From NCBI RefSeq assembly GCF_001261915.1, contig NZ_CVRT01000073.1, positions 1 to 38,412 on the forward strand: 38,412 nucleotides of DNA, written 5' to 3'. Within the stretch, counting starts at the first letter, position 1. The number at the start of each line of letters is the position of its first letter. The notes beneath the pieces were generated by a model. That model did not search any database, was not told the origin of the DNA, and was given only the letters and a program-made list of their open reading frames with translations. Shown one piece after another: positions 17,609 through 24,327 of the stretch. The stretch comes from Halorubrum sp. SD626R. Lineage in GTDB: Archaea; Halobacteriota; Halobacteria; Halobacteriales; Haloferacaceae. A program made the translations under genes and the position numbers.

Positions 17609-18901
17609 GTGACGCTCGATCCGATCCACGTCGAGAACATCGCGCGGCTCGCGTACGGGATCGCGAGCGACGTGGACACGACCGACCACGACGACCTCGC
17701 GGAGCGGGTGTGGCGCGACTGGCTCCCCGAGCTTCGCCGCGACGGTCGGGTCGTCGTCGAGCCCGTCGGCGACCACGAGCGCCGGCTGGCCCCCATCGAC
17801 GACGCCGCCCTCGCCGAGCGCCCGTTCGAGACGGTCCACGGGCTCGACTCCGGCACGATCAACCCGACCACGTTCAAGAACGGGCTCGTCGTCGACGTGG
17901 CCCACGCCGCGATGGCGAGCGAGCCGACGGACCTGGACCTGCACCGCGAGCGCACCATCGTCGCGACCGTCCACGCCGGCGACTCCACCGCCGACTTCGA
18001 CGGCGACTGGACCGAGCGCGACGAGGGCCACACCCGCCAGCGCGTGCTCCACGCGCCGCGGGTGAACCGGTACGCGGAGGGGGTCGTCCACGCGCTCGCC
18101 CTCTACCTCGCCGAGGGGACCCACGCGCTCGACCACGCCGACGAGGTCGACGACCTGCTCGTCCTCGACGGTCCGATCTACCCGAAGGAGCTGTTCACGT
18201 GGGACGACCGCAACCCCGAGCTCGGCGCGCTCGCCCGCGAGGCGAAGCCCCGCGCCGTGGTCGAGAAGTACGTCCGGCTCGTCGAGCGGTTCGTCGAGCG
18301 CGACGTGCCCCTCGCCGGCTTCGTGAAGAACCCCTCCAGCGGGGCGATCGTCCGGGCGCTGGCGCGGAAGGGCGTCGAGCCGCCGTGGCCCGACGACACC
18401 GCGCTGTTCACGCGGCTGCTGGAGCGGCGGGAGGACCCCGAGCGACCGACCGACGAGGGGTTCGGTCGAGGGGGTGCGAGCCGTCGCGGCGACCGCCTCG
18501 ACGACGCGCTCACGTTCACCACGTGGTTCCACAGCCGCGGGGGCGCCGACGCGACGATGGCCGCCGACGGCGACGCGCTCGGGATCGACCGGGAGCTCGA
18601 CCCCGAACTGTACGAGCCCACGTTCACGGTCGTCTACGACCCGCGGACCGACGTGACGTACAAGCTGGAGGCGCCGTACGCGTTCACCCGCGACGCCGAG
18701 ACCCGCGACCGGCTCACCCGGCAGGTCCTCGCCGAGGTGGCGACGACGCGGGGACCGCCGGAGGCCGTCGCGAAGGCCGACGAGCTGGCGCGGATCGACG
18801 CCACGGAGAAGGCCGCGCTCCGCCGGAAGTTCGAGGAGCGGTTCGACAGCGACCAGCAGGCGACGTACGACGACCTGCGGTGGGGGAAGGCCCAGTTCTA
18901 A
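17609..18901 (+). CDS. nurA: NurA-domain DNA repair nuclease
   Basis: 430 residues from a GTG start placed by the upstream TATA box. The NurA nuclease features are clear: [20 protein letters not shown] with the first metal-binding Asp, [10 protein letters not shown] with the next Asp, [16 protein letters not shown], and the late [12 protein letters not shown] and [12 protein letters not shown]. NurA digests DNA 5' to 3' together with the HerA helicase and prepares ends during Mre11-Rad50 break repair. The haloarchaeal form is longer than crenarchaeal NurA. No herA, mre11 or rad50 is in the window. A D/R/G-rich insert at about 275-295 is lineage-like. The gene diverges from the chemotaxis transducer. 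Confidence 0.9.
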
Positions 18902-18948
18902 CGCCTCCCGTCTCCCTCCGCAAACGCGGTCGGCGCGTGCTTCCGAGG

Positions 18949-18971
18949 CCGCCTCGCGGCTGGGGCCTTGG
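18949..18971 (-). repeat. Dispersed intergenic repeat, copy B (inverted fragment)
   Basis: Read on the minus strand this is ccaaggccccagccgcgagg plus cgg, matching the start of copy A at 8838 with one changed base. It lies between NurA and the left end of the AT-rich island. Only the first block is recognisable; the rest of copy A is not found here. Confidence 0.6.
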
Positions 18972-19002
18972 GAGCGTCCGTCTGCGTCCCGTTCTCAGCT
19001 AT

Positions 19003-19018
19003 TTGGCTCTATTGAAAT
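19003..19018 (+). repeat. Left outer inverted repeat of the accessory island
   Basis: ttggctctattgaaat is matched at 15 of 16 positions by the reverse complement of 23519-23534. Base composition falls visibly from the left flank to the right of this point. Confidence 0.65.
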
Positions 19019-19047
19019 CCTCTTCGTCAGACACATCATCGTTAAAT

Positions 19048-19065
19048 AACTCTGTTGAAATTCTC
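19048..19065 (+). repeat. Second, inner copy of the island terminal repeat
   Basis: aactctgttgaaattctc repeats the core ctctgttgaaat 43 bases inside the outer copy. From here to about 19118 it aligns loosely with the reverse complement of the right end (23467-23532), including the gacgtg and atacagagc blocks. Confidence 0.55.
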
Positions 19066-19089
19066 AATTAGTGATATGTTCTTGGAGAC

Positions 19090-19118
19090 GTGCTGAATAC
19101 AGAGCGCGTATCTCGTAG
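19090..19118 (+). other. Putative recombinase crossover site, left copy
   Basis: gtgctgaatac, then spacer agagcgc, then gtatctcgtag. The inner arm ends ATAC/GTAT are a perfect inverted pair around the 7-base spacer. Read in the same way as the other two copies, its spacer is in reverse orientation (gcgctct on the other strand). Confidence 0.45.
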
Positions 19119-19178
19119 GGGAGCTAGACATATTTATTCCGCCGTCCACGTTTACTCCTCATCTTTTTACCGGACAAT

Positions 19179-19186
19179 CTTTTATA
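19179..19186 (+). promoter_or_regulatory. TATA box of the island histidine kinase
   Basis: cttttatactgg spans this site, 24-31 bases before the ATG at 19210. The transcript would be leaderless and the promoter travels inside the island. Confidence 0.6.
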
Positions 19187-19209
19187 CTGGTGAATGTATC
19201 TTCCTACCT

Positions 19210-21393
19210 ATGAGCGGTCGGGGAGCAATTCGTATTATACATGTTGATGATGAAGGAAAGTTTGCAGAGTTGACCGCTGATATGCTCAAGCGTGAAGACG
19301 ACCGATTTGACATTAAGACGGTGACGTGTGCCAGCGACGGTCTGGACCGACTTGCGGATGAAGAATACGACTGCATTGTCTCCGATTACGATATGCCCGG
19401 GCAGAATGGAATCGACTTTCTTGAAGCGGTCCGCGAAGAGGACCCGGATCTCCCGTTTATTCTCTACACTGGCAAAGGAAGCGAAGAGATTGCCAGCGAT
19501 GCAATCTCGGCGGGTGTTACAGAGTATCTTCAGAAGCAAAGCGGGACCGGTCAGTATGCTGTACTGGCAAACCGAATTATAAACGCCGTTGAAAAATACC
19601 GCGCACAGGTCGAACTCGCCGAGAGGGAAAAGCGTCTCAACTTGTTTTTCGAGCAGTCCCCGCTCGGCGTCATCAAGTGGGACGAAAACTTCCAGATCGC
19701 ACGGGTGAACGAGGCGGCGGAAGACATTCTCGGGTACGAAGCCGACGAGCTCATCGGGCGCTCGTGGGAGGCGATCGTTCCGAAAGCCGATGGCGAAGCC
19801 GTGAGAGAAGTGGTCTCAGCACTCCTCGAGGACCGGGGTGGATACCACAGTATCAATGAAAACGTCCGTGAAGACGGCGAACACATCGTCTGCGAGTGGC
19901 ACAACCGAGTCGTAACCGACGAGTCCGGCGAGGTCGTCGCCATTTTCTCTCAGTTCCAGGACATCACAGACCGAAAAGAGGAGAAACGCAGGAGCGAGCA
20001 GCGGCGGCGTCGACTTGAGCACATCCTCAAGACGGTGCCTGCGTGTGTCGTCCAGCTCAACCCGTCCGGTAAGTTCGTCTTCGCCAACGACCGCGCGGAG
20101 GAAGTGCTCGGACTGGAACCCGACGACGTGACCGACAGAGCGTACAATGATCCGGACTGGAAAATTAAAGACCTGGACGGGAATCCCATCCCGGACGGGG
20201 AACTCCCGTTCCGGCGGGTGGCCGATACCGGCACTCCCCTCTACGACGTTCGCCACATCATCGAATGGCCGGACGGAACGCGCAAGATACTCTTGGTAAA
20301 CGGAGCACCGCTGACGGACGACGACGGTGCCGTAGAGAACGTAATATTCGCCCTCACGGATGTCACCGAACAGGTCGTTCGGAAGAGGCGACTGGAGGCG
20401 ATTCTGGAGAACACGACTGCCCCGCTGTTCATGAAAAATCGCGATGGGGAGTACCTACTGGTGAACAAAGGATGGAGAGAACTGTTTGGACTAGAGAATA
20501 CCGAGGTGCGAGGACGGACTGATACCGACCTGTTTCACGCGGAGATGGCGGCGGACGTCCAAAAGAACGATCAGAAAGTGATCGAAACCGGCGACCCGGT
20601 CAACGAAGAAGAGCTGATACTCATCGACGGCGAAGAGCGGACGTTTCTCACCTCAAAAACTCCTGTCTATGACATTGGAAACAAAATCGATCCGGAGAAG
20701 CCTGTGGCCCTATTCGGCGTCGCCAACGACATCACCGAACAAAAAGAACGGGAACGACGCCTGCAGCGGCAGAACGAACGATTCGACGAACTGGCGAGTG
20801 CAATCTCTCACGATCTACAGACACCACTGGCGACGGCCAGTGGTCGGGCCGAACTCGCAATCAAGACCGGCGACACTGAACAGATAGAACAAGCGTTGGA
20901 CGCCATTGAGCGCGCCGATGAGCTACGGGAGAGCCTGGTTGAGGTACTCCGGACTGGAGAGGTTGTCAACGGGATGGAATCAGTTAGTATCGAGCCGCTC
21001 GCTGACGACGCCTGGAATACAGTTTCCGCCACTGACGACGTTTCACTTGAGGTCTGTGATGACTTCGTTGTCGACGCCGATCCCGATGCACTACAACGAT
21101 TGTTCGAGAACCTCTTCTCGAACGCTGTCAACCACACAGACGGCGCTGTCACGGTTCGAGTCGGAAGAACCGACGACGGATTTTTCATCGATGACGACGG
21201 GCACGGAGTCCCAGAGAATGTCCGCGATAAGGTGTTCAAGCCTGGATATTCCATAGATAGTAGCGGAGACGGCGTCGGTTTAGCGAGCGTCAAACAGATT
21301 ACCATGTCACATGGATGGGACATCAACGTCACCGAAAGCGACGAGGGCGGAGCACGGTTCGAAATCAGCGGTGTGGAGTTCAGTACTGAATAA
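19210..21393 (+). CDS. Receiver-PAS-PAS-PAS sensor histidine kinase (island cargo)
   Basis: 727 residues from the ATG at 19210, fixed by the TATA box; codons back to 19090 come from the repeat. An N-terminal receiver domain (1-125) has acidic pocket residues D13-D14 in IIHVDDEG, phospho-acceptor Asp59 in CIVSDYDMPG and Lys109. Three PAS domains follow (about 140-255, 275-395, 400-515), then HisKA with His534 in AISHDLQTPL, and an ATPase domain (ENLFSNAVNH, DDDGHGVPE, GDGVGLASV). No membrane helix is present. A receiver in front of the PAS domains makes it able to be both input and output of phosphorelay. Base and codon use are less GC-rich than the flanking chromosome, indicating transfer with the island. 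Confidence 0.92.
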   Translation: MSGRGAIRIIHVDDEGKFAELTADMLKREDDRFDIKTVTCASDGLDRLADEEYDCIVSDYDMPGQNGIDFLEAVREEDPDLPFILYTGKGSEEIASDAISAGVTEYLQKQSGTGQYAVLANRIINAVEKYRAQVELAEREKRLNLFFEQSPLGVIKWDENFQIARVNEAAEDILGYEADELIGRSWEAIVPKADGEAVREVVSALLEDRGGYHSINENVREDGEHIVCEWHNRVVTDESGEVVAIFSQFQDITDRKEEKRRSEQRRRRLEHILKTVPACVVQLNPSGKFVFANDRAEEVLGLEPDDVTDRAYNDPDWKIKDLDGNPIPDGELPFRRVADTGTPLYDVRHIIEWPDGTRKILLVNGAPLTDDDGAVENVIFALTDVTEQVVRKRRLEAILENTTAPLFMKNRDGEYLLVNKGWRELFGLENTEVRGRTDTDLFHAEMAADVQKNDQKVIETGDPVNEEELILIDGEERTFLTSKTPVYDIGNKIDPEKPVALFGVANDITEQKERERRLQRQNERFDELASAISHDLQTPLATASGRAELAIKTGDTEQIEQALDAIERADELRESLVEVLRTGEVVNGMESVSIEPLADDAWNTVSATDDVSLEVCDDFVVDADPDALQRLFENLFSNAVNHTDGAVTVRVGRTDDGFFIDDDGHGVPENVRDKVFKPGYSIDSSGDGVGLASVKQITMSHGWDINVTESDEGGARFEISGVEFSTE

Positions 21394-21454
21394 ATTCTCT
21401 ATATTCAGGAGCCGTCTGTGTCGCGAAAGGCCGATTGAAATCGCCTGTCTTCCC

Positions 21455-21483
21455 GTGCTGCATACACGCTCTGTATCGGTCAC
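21455..21483 (+). other. Putative recombinase crossover site, middle copy over the integrase stop codon
   Basis: gtgctgcatac, then spacer acgctct, then gtatcggtcac. The integrase stop codon (21480-21482 on the minus strand) lies inside the right arm. It is a direct repeat of the right copy at 23467-23495: left arm 11 of 11, spacer 5 of 7, right arm 8 of 11. Confidence 0.5.
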
Positions 21484-22216
21484 GTCGCTACTGAACGAGG
21501 TTTGAGAAGATCCCACCCGTGATGGACACGACGTAGTGCATCAGCCGTTGCTGTTCCCGAGATACGGATGTATTTTTGCGCAGTCGCCATATCGCTCCAT
21601 CCCATTAGCGCTTGGAGCGGCACGGGAGCGACGCCTTTGTGGGCGTGGTAGCTGGCGGCAGTCGCACGTAAACAGTGTAGATAGACACGTCCTGAAAGAT
21701 CGGCTTCGTCGGCCGCGGCCTGTACCCGCCTGTTGATTGTTGACCGCGAGCAGGGAAACGAATCATACCGGCTAGCGAAACGTTCGACACATAGCTCCAC
21801 TCGAAGCGAGAGATCAAACGGAATGAGCCGCGCCGAGGCGACAGTCTTCGGATACCATCGAGACCACAGGGCATCAGTAAATGATAGATCATCGTTGTGG
21901 GTCGTTTCCTGTGGGCCTGACGCCGGCAGTAACCACACTGGCACGGTTCATGTTGTGGGATACGAATCGTACGGCGGTTCCAGTTTATCCACGCAGTCTG
22001 GAAGTGTGCAATTTCCCCAGCACGAAGTCCGAGTCGGCCTGCGATGAGACAGATGAATCGCGCTTCAAAATCGTGTGGTGCTGGAAGGGCTGTACATGCT
22101 TCTAACAGGAGTTCGAACTGGCGGTCAGTAAGGACATCTTCGTGAGTATGTCGAGTCGTGAGTGCTTGCCGATGCCGGTCAGCCCATTCAGTTCCGGGTT
22201 GCTTGTGATTAGACAC
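21480..22216 (-). pseudogene. Short tyrosine recombinase/integrase, frameshifted
   Basis: Two overlapping frames together make one integrase. The first, from the GTG at 22216, runs through the N-terminal region and catalytic Arg in LIAGRLGLRAGEIAH and a Cys-rich PCQCGYCRRQA. The second continues with THNDDLSFTDALWSRWYPKT (Lys), YLHCLRATAASYHAHKG (His-x-x-Arg), GWSDMATAQKYIRISG (Tyr) and ends at 21480. The switch falls near 21905-21925, where 17 bases separate the two parts and 18 would keep frame, so a one-base loss explains it. All catalytic residues survive across the two frames, so the event is recent. It belongs to the short haloarchaeal site-specific integrases without a long N-terminal arm-binding domain. 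Confidence 0.8.
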
Positions 22217-22260
22217 TCGCAGGCATTCTCATGCTGGCTGATTGGGCGTACCGTTGAATT

Positions 22261-22289
22261 GTGCTGAATGTAGGGCGCTGGTCGATTAC
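22261..22289 (+). other. Possible degenerate fourth crossover-like site
   Basis: gtgctgaatgt, then agggcgc, then tggtcgattac. The first nine bases are identical to the left copy and the spacer differs at one base, but the right arm does not match. It lies between the integrase start and the nuclease end. Confidence 0.2.
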
Positions 22290-22340
22290 GATGAACGGGT
22301 CAGGAATCTTCCGACTGAATCGTACGATACCGGGTGTCTA

Positions 22341-23363
22341 TCACTCGGTTCGGAGCCTCGTTACTACTGCTGCATGATCGCTGGCGTGCAGAGCGTTTGG
22401 GGACTCTAACTCACCGTTCCAGAGTGTACACGTCTCCACATCGAACTGCTGTGAAACGAGCACGTGATCTAACCGTTTCCGTGCAGGGGTTCCGTTCGGG
22501 AGAATGTGCGTGTAGTCCTCTACACTCGATGTCTTTACACTCTCTTCGGCAGCCCAGTAGACATCTTCCAGCCCCCAGTCGCCTATGTCTGGATCAAACA
22601 TGCGGGCTTCTGCAAGTTGCCACCGCTGCTTGAACTCCAATTCGCCCACGTCGCCAGCAGAGTCTCGAAGGTGATGTGGATCCCCATAGTCCGGGTAGGC
22701 CGTGTACTGACTAGCATTCTCACCATGCGGAACAATCGATCCATCGGCTTCTTCGCGTTTCGGTGCGTTGAAATCGCCCCCCAAGAGGACTGGAATATCG
22801 GTTTTCGAGGTCTGGAGATAAATCCGTCCGTAGATGGTTTCGAGCATATTGAGCTTCTCCTCACCCCAGTTTGCCCCGTTGATGATACCCACGTTCCAGA
22901 GTTCAAGTGTATTGGTTGTGAACGCAGGAGACGCCGAAACATCAACTTCTGCGACTAACATCTTCTCCGGGAAGTGTGAATAGTAGTAATTGAGACTGCG
23001 AGGTTTTCGATTACCCTGATTCCGGAGAGTCAGCGGGCGACGCTCGATGGGCCACCGACTGGCAATGAGATTACAGCGGTTGTGCGCCCCCACGATGTCG
23101 GTGTGTGGCTGGACATTCGATGTTGCGAGTTCCTCCGCCCAATCTCCCGTGTGGACGATTGAATAGTTGTGTTCTGCCAGATAGTCACAGAGCGTTCCGA
23201 GCTGACCCCCCCAGTCATCGTCCCCCGTCCGCTCATAGTTTACCGCCTGAAGCAGGAGAATATCAATATCTGACGCGTGTGCTTCGAGAAACCTGAGTTG
23301 TCGTTGCATTCGCGTGTCGCTAATCCCAATCTCACCTTGAACATTCCAGGACATTACTCTCAT
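22341..23363 (-). CDS. Endonuclease/exonuclease/phosphatase-fold protein with altered catalytic Glu
   Basis: 340 residues starting MRVMSWNVQGEIG. EEP (DNase I/exonuclease III-like) motifs are in order: SWNVQG with the metal-site Asn, then ILLLQAVNYE where the family normally has L-Q-E, VLLGGDFNAPK with Asp and Asn, RLDHVLVS with Asp, and the terminal ASDHAAVV with the catalytic Asp-His pair. The Glu that binds the metal is thus Ala here (codon GCG instead of GAG), which would reduce or abolish ordinary nuclease activity unless a neighbour substitutes. There is no signal peptide or membrane helix. Base use is AT-richer than the host, and the gene lies between the middle and right crossover-like sites with the broken integrase. 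Confidence 0.82.
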   Translation of the reverse strand: MRVMSWNVQGEIGISDTRMQRQLRFLEAHASDIDILLLQAVNYERTGDDDWGGQLGTLCDYLAEHNYSIVHTGDWAEELATSNVQPHTDIVGAHNRCNLIASRWPIERRPLTLRNQGNRKPRSLNYYYSHFPEKMLVAEVDVSASPAFTTNTLELWNVGIINGANWGEEKLNMLETIYGRIYLQTSKTDIPVLLGGDFNAPKREEADGSIVPHGENASQYTAYPDYGDPHHLRDSAGDVGELEFKQRWQLAEARMFDPDIGDWGLEDVYWAAEESVKTSSVEDYTHILPNGTPARKRLDHVLVSQQFDVETCTLWNGELESPNALHASDHAAVVTRLRTE

Positions 23364-23466
23364 TAGTTGATCGAGTCGCTACTCTCCCGCGTCTTTGAAA
23401 TTACTTAGGGCAGAATCTATCAAGAAATCCAACCGGGATTATGGGTCAGTATCGGATTACGATCCG

Positions 23467-23495
23467 GTGCTGCATACCGGCTCTGTATCTCTCAC
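23467..23495 (+). other. Putative recombinase crossover site, right copy
   Basis: gtgctgcatac, then spacer cggctct, then gtatctctcac. It is in direct orientation to the middle copy and inverted in spacer sense to the left copy. It lies 24 bases inside the right outer inverted repeat. Confidence 0.5.
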
Positions 23496-23518
23496 GTCGA
23501 TTCTATCAGTTATTAAGT

Positions 23519-23534
23519 ATTTCAACAGAGCCAA
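23519..23534 (-). repeat. Right outer inverted repeat of the accessory island
   Basis: On the minus strand it reads ttggctctgttgaaat, 15 of 16 identical to 19003-19018. GC-rich host-like coding sequence resumes within about 70 bases. Confidence 0.65.
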
Positions 23535-23598
23535 CTGTTTATAAGTGAGCGGCTTTGGCTTCGCGAACGTTCTCGCCAGCGTCAATCACGTCCGAGTC

Positions 23599-24327
23599 TC
23601 ACATTGATTGCGTGAGCAGCACCACGTAGATGACAGCATTATAAACGCCGTGCGCCAGCCCGGGAACGATCACGTTCCCGGTGCGCTCGTACAGGTAGCC
23701 GAGCACCGCGCCGAGCACGACGACGACGGCGACGTAGGCCCACTGCTGGCCGGCCGTCCCGGAGACCGAGGGCAGGTGGATCAGCCCGAACGCGAGGCTC
23801 GCGAGCAGGATCGACGGGACCGCGTCGAACGCGCGCCGGAGTCCGCCCTGCACGACCCCGCGGAACAGCGCCTCCTCGACCGGGCCGACGACGAGCAGCG
23901 AGACCGCGACCATGACGAGGTAGTACGTCACCGGGTCGCCGTCTGGCACGACCGCCTGGTTCTGGCCGGTCGTGAGCCCAATTTCGCCGAGCACGAACAG
24001 CGCGCCGTACTGGAACGCGAATAGGACCGCCCCGCCGGCGACGACGAGCCCGGCGTCCCGACGCGTCGGCCGGGAGAGCCCGACGAGCCCCCACTGGTCG
24101 GTGATCGCGAGATATCCCGCGACCGCGGCGAGGAACCCGGCGAACTGTAGCAGCGTCCGGAGCACCTGCAGCCCGGTCGTCCCCTCGCCTACGAGCCCGA
24201 GCGAGACCGCGAACTCGGAGACGGGCGTCGTCACCGCGCCGGCGACGACGACCGCGAGCAGGACCGCGAACGCCGCGCTCAGAACGCGGAGGATCCGGTT
24301 CGCCGGCTCGGACAGCGACTCGCTCAT
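23599..24327 (-). CDS. CPBP-family intramembrane metalloprotease
   Basis: 242 residues with about seven hydrophobic segments. The CPBP (Abi/Rce1-type) motifs are present: VVGPVEEALFRGVVQGGLRR with the Glu-Glu-x3-Arg motif, AFGLIHLPS with the first His, and VPGLAHGVYNAVIY with His and Asn. These Glu and His residues form the intramembrane active site. Eukaryotic Rce1 trims prenylated proteins; prokaryotic members act in peptide maturation, immunity to bacteriocins or unknown roles. The start MSESLSEPANRILRV at 24327 gives a normal length. The end lies only 65 bases outside the island, and the gene follows pgi by 86 bases on the same strand. Confidence 0.88.
   Translation of the reverse strand: MSESLSEPANRILRVLSAAFAVLLAVVVAGAVTTPVSEFAVSLGLVGEGTTGLQVLRTLLQFAGFLAAVAGYLAITDQWGLVGLSRPTRRDAGLVVAGGAVLFAFQYGALFVLGEIGLTTGQNQAVVPDGDPVTYYLVMVAVSLLVVGPVEEALFRGVVQGGLRRAFDAVPSILLASLAFGLIHLPSVSGTAGQQWAYVAVVVVLGAVLGYLYERTGNVIVPGLAHGVYNAVIYVVLLTQSM

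Follow-up and report, generated by a model that had tools for sequence, protein, structure and literature searches.

The window, by which we mean the whole stretch of 38,412 nucleotides of Halorubrum sp. SD626R that was analysed, carries an island at positions 19005 to 23532 that is a transposon-ended cassette array comprising two cargo genes and an integrase module. Its features are, in window coordinates:

18997-19004, plus strand: left target duplication AGCTATTT, two mismatches in eight bases compared to the right copy
19005-23532, no strand: whole unit, with inverted ends GGCTCTATTGAAATCC and GGCTCTGTTGAAATAC of the inverted GGCTCTRTTGAAAT type
19053-19089, minus strand: 37-bp linker from the terminal a-site to the end, recognised by eye through comparison with other terminal a-halves
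19090-19118, minus strand: terminal a-site, spacer GCGCTCT (minus strand, 19101-19107)
19210-21393, plus strand: cargo 1, response-regulator/PAS/histidine kinase gene (Pfam PF00072, PAS families, PF00512 and PF02518; scanned from 19213)
21455-21483, minus strand: b-site of the integrase module, spacer AGAGCGT (minus strand, 21466-21472)
21516-22216, minus strand: short tyrosine integrase, broken into two frames (PF00589 in both, the second below the curated cut-off)
22264-22292, minus strand: a-site of the integrase module with a degenerate outer arm, spacer GCGCCCT (minus strand, 22275-22281)
22341-23363, minus strand: cargo 2, endonuclease/exonuclease/phosphatase-fold (nuclease) gene (PF03372, E 4.7e-10)
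23467-23495, minus strand: terminal b-site, spacer AGAGCCG (minus strand, 23478-23484)
23496-23532, minus strand: linker and inverted end GGCTCTGTTGAAATAC outside the terminal b-site
23533-23540, plus strand: right target duplication AACTGTTT, matching the left copy at only six of eight positions

Along the minus strand the array thus starts with a b-half, followed by the nuclease gene, the integrase module (with its a-site, integrase, and b-site) and the kinase gene, and it ends with an a-half. The island is AT-rich, with a GC content of about 0.46-0.60 versus 0.72-0.75 outside. A Pfam scan of the three genes of the unit revealed no transposase, PADLOC gave no match for the three proteins, and Rfam at gathering scores gave none for positions 18800-23700. 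The window does not contain a tRNA gene, and an attachment site in such a gene, the mark of tRNA-targeting genomic islands, is therefore missing.

Sites and spacer classes

An earlier note on this DNA had described three 29-base sites with an 11-7-11 design, the middle one overlapping the stop codon of the integrase, and both observations hold. The pattern GTGCTGCATAC-N7-GTAT with up to three mismatches matches exactly three sites in the window, at 19090, 21455 and 23467 when read on the plus strand, while 100 shuffles gave 0.07 matches on average and one at most; the integrase reading frame concerned spans 21480-21944. In addition, there is a fourth, degenerate site at 22264-22292. The differences between the spacers had been attributed to decay or to sites of related elements. 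Decay was dropped as a reading because two spacer classes are distinguishable in 53 copies of the composite site described below, namely a (GCGCNNT) and b (AGAGNNT), with identical arm polarity in both consensus sequences.

The class assignment has consequences for the products that recombination could yield. The middle and right sites have b-class spacers and point the same way. Recombination of b x b is therefore expected to produce a circle of about 2 kb that contains the integrase and the nuclease gene, as had been proposed, and a predicted cassette rule of one gene plus one a-b module yields the same product. The left site had been regarded as having its spacer reversed, which would lead to inversion of the kinase segment. 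However, it belongs to the other spacer class and has the same polarity, judged from the consensus and the window sites, so that such an inversion is not expected, and we discarded it on the ground of arm polarity.

The island is missing from the corresponding gap in relatives. The 3' end of the NurA gene was located in 52 of 52 genomes of the genus, and 30 NurA loci, one of which is the window, were compared. The CAAX-protease gene was also present in 23 of the 29 others; in the remaining six this second flanking gene is not within the locus, which makes them uninformative for the gap. In all 23 relatives with both flanking genes the gap measures 34-1064 bp compared to 4697 in the window (alignment coordinates), which is too short to hold the unit. 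The joined flanks of the window align to the empty site of L162 without gaps over 64 bases with 80% identity, 13 bases only lying past the junction. The empty sites of other relatives align in part or with gaps, and the gap itself contains repeats. One repeat (ggctggggctttgg ... ttataa ... gagcgg) is found at 18940-18990 and 23540-23570 of the window and at 1890-2420 of L163. It occupies much of the gap in some relatives, and the window unit is inserted in one copy.

It is hardly credible that the mobile entity is an integrase-nuclease unit of 2 kb, cut out by recombination of the middle with the right site and accompanied by an invertible kinase segment on the left. The shared class and co-orientation of these two sites would suit this view, but the unit has its borders at 19005 and 23532, the class and polarity of the left site do not predict an inversion, the window integrase is broken, and the short unit-free gap in relatives weakens it further. 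The circle is a predicted product, but the mobile structure is the whole of 19005-23532 with its transposon-like ends. The 2-kb unit is also incomplete as a description, given that relatives form arrays of several cassettes and that the integrase module, about 0.8 kb from spacer to spacer, is common to unrelated contexts.

Composite sites and cassette arrays

The cassettes of relatives are usually separated by a 95-base composite of an a-site, 37 bases, and a b-site. A relaxed scan of the fetched loci showed many sites paired 66 bases apart, with a-b linkers of 36-38 bases, and the composite consensus was built from the 53 copies whose linker is exactly 37 bases long. The linker (e.g. L067:5495-5531) contains the conserved blocks GAACTCCTCAA and CTGTCAGTAACGG and may bind a protein. 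After removal of duplicates, 144 full composites were found in 41 loci, which had been selected for carrying sites or integrases. Their median spacing is 804 bp, and 90 of 91 adjacent composites (within 3 kb) are co-oriented, or 91 of 92 if duplicates are kept.

Many runs start with a b-half and finish with an a-half. Genome G083, a congener of the Haloprofundus genomes G080 and G084, has 28 full composites in a single orientation at 57-92 kb of one contig, and its runs reach nine composites between half sites. At G083:C1:59556-59960 an a-half is directly followed by full composites with no b-half between, perhaps representing two fused arrays. In six annotated loci the midpoints of all full composites (47 of 47) are located outside annotated genes. 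The 52 b-to-a intervals of these loci contain one gene in 32 cases, two or three genes in three cases, and no listed gene in 17 cases, a number affected by an incomplete plasmid gene table. Gene direction within the intervals is mixed (22 same, 17 opposite). Units with a plan like that of the window were found in H. ezzemoulense, with a hypothetical gene and a phosphate transporter as cargo, and in H. halobius, with a PQQ-type gene and a prolyl aminopeptidase; the b-site of the integrase module in the latter was identified by eye.

Probable exchange of cassettes at the sites

Plasmid pMHR1-2 of Haloprofundus sp. MHR1 and plasmid 2 of H. halobius share flanks of 84% and 86% identity, and this homology halts at the terminal a-site and restarts at the terminal b-site. 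Between the flanks there are five and nine full composites, respectively, with different content; in a DNA comparison of the inner parts no match exceeds 153 bases, and nearly all matches are sites. A set of 184 homology blocks, from which integrase and duplicate records had been left out, provided 174 usable ends. Of these, 21 lie, on both sides, at most 15 bp from a spacer, compared to a mean of 0.126 and a maximum of 2 in 500 randomisations, and the b-spacer accounts for 16 of the 21. The remaining 153 ends fall outside this distance on one or both sides and reflect normal sequence divergence or events of other kinds.

When MHR1 was included, 41 ends (21 starts and 20 stops) could be placed in the frame of the site. 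Eleven starts map to model positions 74-78, two to 68, five to 2-11, and three elsewhere, and eleven stops map to 81-97, six to 26-31, and three to 36-44. The b-spacer corresponds to model positions 78-84, and the ATAC at 74-77 is nearly invariant. We read these breakpoints as the probable traces of mainly b x b exchange of a gene together with a composite, and of some a x a exchange. In the genome comparisons, gene content changes exactly at the paired sites.

The composites could also be nothing but conserved repeats through which cassettes are shuffled by homologous recombination. Their likeness to each other (73% mean column identity in the alignment of the 53 copies) and the many genomes without an integrase agree with this explanation. 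Nevertheless, we regard it as quite improbable, because the breakpoints cluster at the edges of the b-spacer and are not distributed evenly over the 95 bp (some are found at 2-11, 26-44 and 54), and because the end sites of replaced content have, on their inner side, no more than a short imperfect stretch in common. It also leaves the constant 37-bp spacing and the two spacer classes unexplained.

The integrase and its module

The window integrase does not have an intact reading frame, as profile A1 matches its two halves, at 21908-22213 and 21519-21911, in different frames. The protein is short, comprising 234 residues in relatives, and the PF00589 match has an E-value of 3e-15. Residues R65, K124, H181, R184, W207, and Y216 are invariant in 11 aligned integrases, as in tyrosine recombinases, and we take them to be the catalytic residues R-K-HxxR-H/W-Y. 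The L040 integrase, one of the five first aligned and outside this set of 11, has a tyrosine in place of His181. Among 7995 scored candidates, 626 database proteins match the integrase at 1e-10 (the best 120 of the 626 are listed). A structure predicted from 59 database proteins reached a pLDDT of 86.9, compared to a mean of 49 for a prediction from six sequences. The model is closest to XerA (E 7.5e-6, TM 0.59) and the Tn1549 integrase, and the integron recombinase IntI is found only at rank 10 (TM 0.46).

The window and a plasmid of Halorubrum ezzemoulense are homologous from 21463 to 22278, which is from within the spacer of the middle site to within that of the fourth. Across 12 loci the identity is 0.5-0.9 inside the module, values that are lowered by mis-anchoring of the b-side in L040 and L055, and about 0.25 from 20-30 bases past the spacers. 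Therefore, the integrase moves as a module bounded by an a-site on one side and a b-site on the other. A second integrase clade has the gene in the reverse orientation, though mostly again between b and a. Of its nine loci, seven have a b side with at most 4 mismatches in 18 positions, seven an a side with at most 5 in 22, and five both, the corresponding 5th percentiles of random windows being 7 (b) and 9 (a). In both clades the gene is found between an a-site and a b-site wherever both ends are readable. The loci of two more distant integrases, L058 and L060, showed no site matches. PAS-type kinases are located near the integrase module in three of the loci inspected (L039:6088-8819, L190:8572-10455, and 19210-21393 of the window).

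Distribution of sites and integrases

The composite model matches, in whole or in part, 155 of 167 genomes of the family at an E-value of 0.001, and 228 of 292 Halobacteria genomes at 1e-4. The latter represent 66 of 77 genera and, among the matches listed, at least nine families. In a draw across the phylum 66 of 392 genomes match, all of them Halobacteriales. Fifteen Halobacteriales genomes among those listed in this draw have no composite match, and neither do the remaining 311 genomes (five listed, 306 taken to be outside the order because of the sorting). In all these counts many matches are partial, and the training set of the model included sequences from some of the counted genomes. 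The window genome itself has 17 composite matches at 0.01, most of them partial. Several near-full and partial composites are found at about 29400-52030 of its contig C30 (G000; L086-L088, L093, L097).

A close integrase (E below 1e-70, the window included) is encoded in 17 of the 167 family genomes, several with stops, and some relative at 1e-20 is found in 46. It is thus literally true that the motif is widespread without an integrase, which the earlier note had named as evidence against its proposal. Composite matches are more numerous in genomes that encode a close integrase than in the others (median 14 versus 8, one-sided p 0.0011; counts were taken up to 25 per genome, and p ignores kinship). 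As suggested before, the sites have the appearance of crossover sites that belong with the integrase, and the position of the gene, the architecture of the sites, and the association with composite counts make it likely that the enzyme acts on them.

Because a close integrase is present in so few of the genomes with sites, the exchange may in part be due to homologous recombination or to a second recombinase. In the stronger form of this explanation, arrays and sites are the same, but a different tyrosine recombinase, such as a Xer-like enzyme of the chromosome, performs the exchange and the short integrase is a passenger. PF00589 proteins were indeed found in 12 of 12 genomes tested, and the dif modules of Acinetobacter rely on the host XerC/XerD according to the available part of PMC13141974. 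On the other hand, where both ends are readable the integrases of two clades sit inside the a-b module and not where cargo is found, and the higher composite counts in genomes with a close integrase also speak against it. We consider this explanation unlikely and the short recombinase the probable agent.

Inverted ends and proposed transposition

Inverted GGCTCTGTTGAAA ends were located outside the half sites. Within 80 bases, an end motif accompanies 22 of the 71 b-halves and 31 of the 75 a-halves (halves of integrase modules counted), or 53 of all 146 half sites, but only 2 of 144 full composites. Of 56 end pairs in the fetched loci, seven have identical 8-base flanks (0.22 expected), four have flanks with one mismatch (0.215 expected), and two, including the window, have flanks with two mismatches (0.255 expected). 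Such a combination of inverted ends and target duplications of fixed length is that of DDE transposons. Two elements with such ends, L132:2906-5091 and L083:5204-6975, encode a PF01609 transposase, which we assume to be of the IS5/ISH1 group, and have 8-bp duplications that are exact in the former and contain one mismatch in the latter. These haloarchaeal insertion sequences resemble the window unit in their inverted ends and 8-bp duplications but encode their own transposase, none having been found among the three genes of the window unit. In the L083 element the PF01609 transposase is accompanied by 29-base sites and one more reading frame. This element is perhaps an autonomous form; its second site is opposite in direction to the first. 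An IS6-type origin of the GGCTCTGTTGAAA ends was considered and abandoned, as the PF13610 elements of these genomes, where their ends could be recognised, are bounded differently: ends with exact 8-bp duplications were obtained for three of the 14 PF13610 loci (GGTCGTGTTTAGTT, GGCGGTGTTCAGAT, and GGTAGTGTTCAGAT). In L146 and L152, two PF13610 loci, a GGCTCTGTTAAAA-like end is nearby and does not bracket the transposase.

With such ends at hand, one might regard the sites as no more than subterminal segments of an insertion sequence that is non-autonomous, and the island as nested transposon debris. The inverted ends with 8-bp duplications, the PF01609 transposase in two elements with such ends, and the MITEs described for Haloquadratum walsbyi (PMC3119063, available part) are in line with this. 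Yet it is very improbable, since full composites are almost never near an end motif (the 2 of 144 given above), form runs of up to nine between half sites, are located between annotated genes in 47 of 47 cases, and cassette exchange takes place at the spacers and not at the ends. The motif is therefore not a mere insertion-sequence end, which the earlier note had given as an example of what would count against its proposal; the composites separate cassettes within an array, and the transposon-like ends bound the array as a whole.

Comparison with known systems

The arrays are likely an archaeal counterpart of the bacterial integron. Both consist of tandem, mostly single-gene cassettes with one co-oriented recombination element each (here 90 of 91 neighbours co-oriented, and one annotated gene in 32 of 52 intervals), both involve a tyrosine recombinase, and both include arrays without a nearby integrase. 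In contrast to integrons, the haloarchaeal element consists of two 29-bp sites 37 bp apart, the integrase is located inside a site module, gene orientation is mixed, and the array is bounded by transposon-like ends. Also, the recombinase is not IntI: NCBIfam TIGR02249 gives 20 bits compared to a cut-off of 265. Single-strand folding as in attC sites was rejected, because RNAalifold on the 53 sites gave 0 pairs and thus no consensus hairpin, and the mean z-scores of folding are about -0.9 for the top and -0.8 for the bottom strand (40 of 53 sites, plain letter shuffles). Archaeal integrons have been reported (PMC9668308, available part).

The dif modules of Acinetobacter plasmids similarly contain genes between short Xer-like sites. 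According to the available part of PMC13141974, these pdif sites are 28 bp long with 6-bp spacers, alternate in orientation, and are served by the host XerC/XerD, and module pairs are excised between directly oriented sites with matching spacers. The haloarchaeal sites differ in having 29 bp in an 11-7-11 arrangement with a 7-bp spacer, in their uniform arm polarity in the a and b consensus and co-oriented composites instead of alternation, and in their two spacer classes, 37-bp linker, and own short recombinase. The system works like integrons and dif modules alike in that genes are cassettes between recombinase sites.

The MITEs and small mobile repeats of Haloquadratum walsbyi are also haloarchaeal repeats with inverted ends, and the MITEs have target duplications and a transposase acting in trans (PMC3119063, available part). 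In that part of the paper no cassettes or recombination sites are described, and the words 'integron' and 'cassette' have 0 occurrences. Arrays of the haloarchaeal type are absent from the available parts of PMC9668308, PMC8371274, PMC3119063, PMC4158269, and PMC13141974, and we found no report of them in the open-access PMC literature, a search that mostly does not extend to subscription journals.

Proposed mechanism and significance

With a probability of about 0.75, we propose that the island is a transposon-ended cassette array with a- and b-sites, whose cassettes are exchanged, likely by the short tyrosine recombinase encoded in an a-b module. The recombinase would bind the 11-base arms of two sites of the same class, cut at the edges of the 7-base spacer, and exchange strands. 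Recombination of a x a or b x b would excise or insert a gene plus an a-b module as a circle, and the differing spacers would prevent a x b recombination. Genomes without an integrase gene would receive the recombinase in trans, and the array as a whole would be moved to new places by a DDE transposase of the PF01609 type recognising the inverted ends.

Going beyond this locus, we lean towards the view that the haloarchaea possess a cassette platform of their own that arose independently of integrons, with a two-address a/b system, a minimal recombinase in its own module, and arrays carried by DDE transposition, which is present in most genomes of the class and shapes their accessory genes. 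If this is true, archaea known for gene exchange would own a cassette-capture system that is integron-like but has unrelated sites and an unrelated recombinase. It would make it possible to test whether cassette platforms arose repeatedly in evolution, and it could yield a recombination tool for halophiles. It would also account for many of the single genes bounded by sites in haloarchaeal plasmids and islands.
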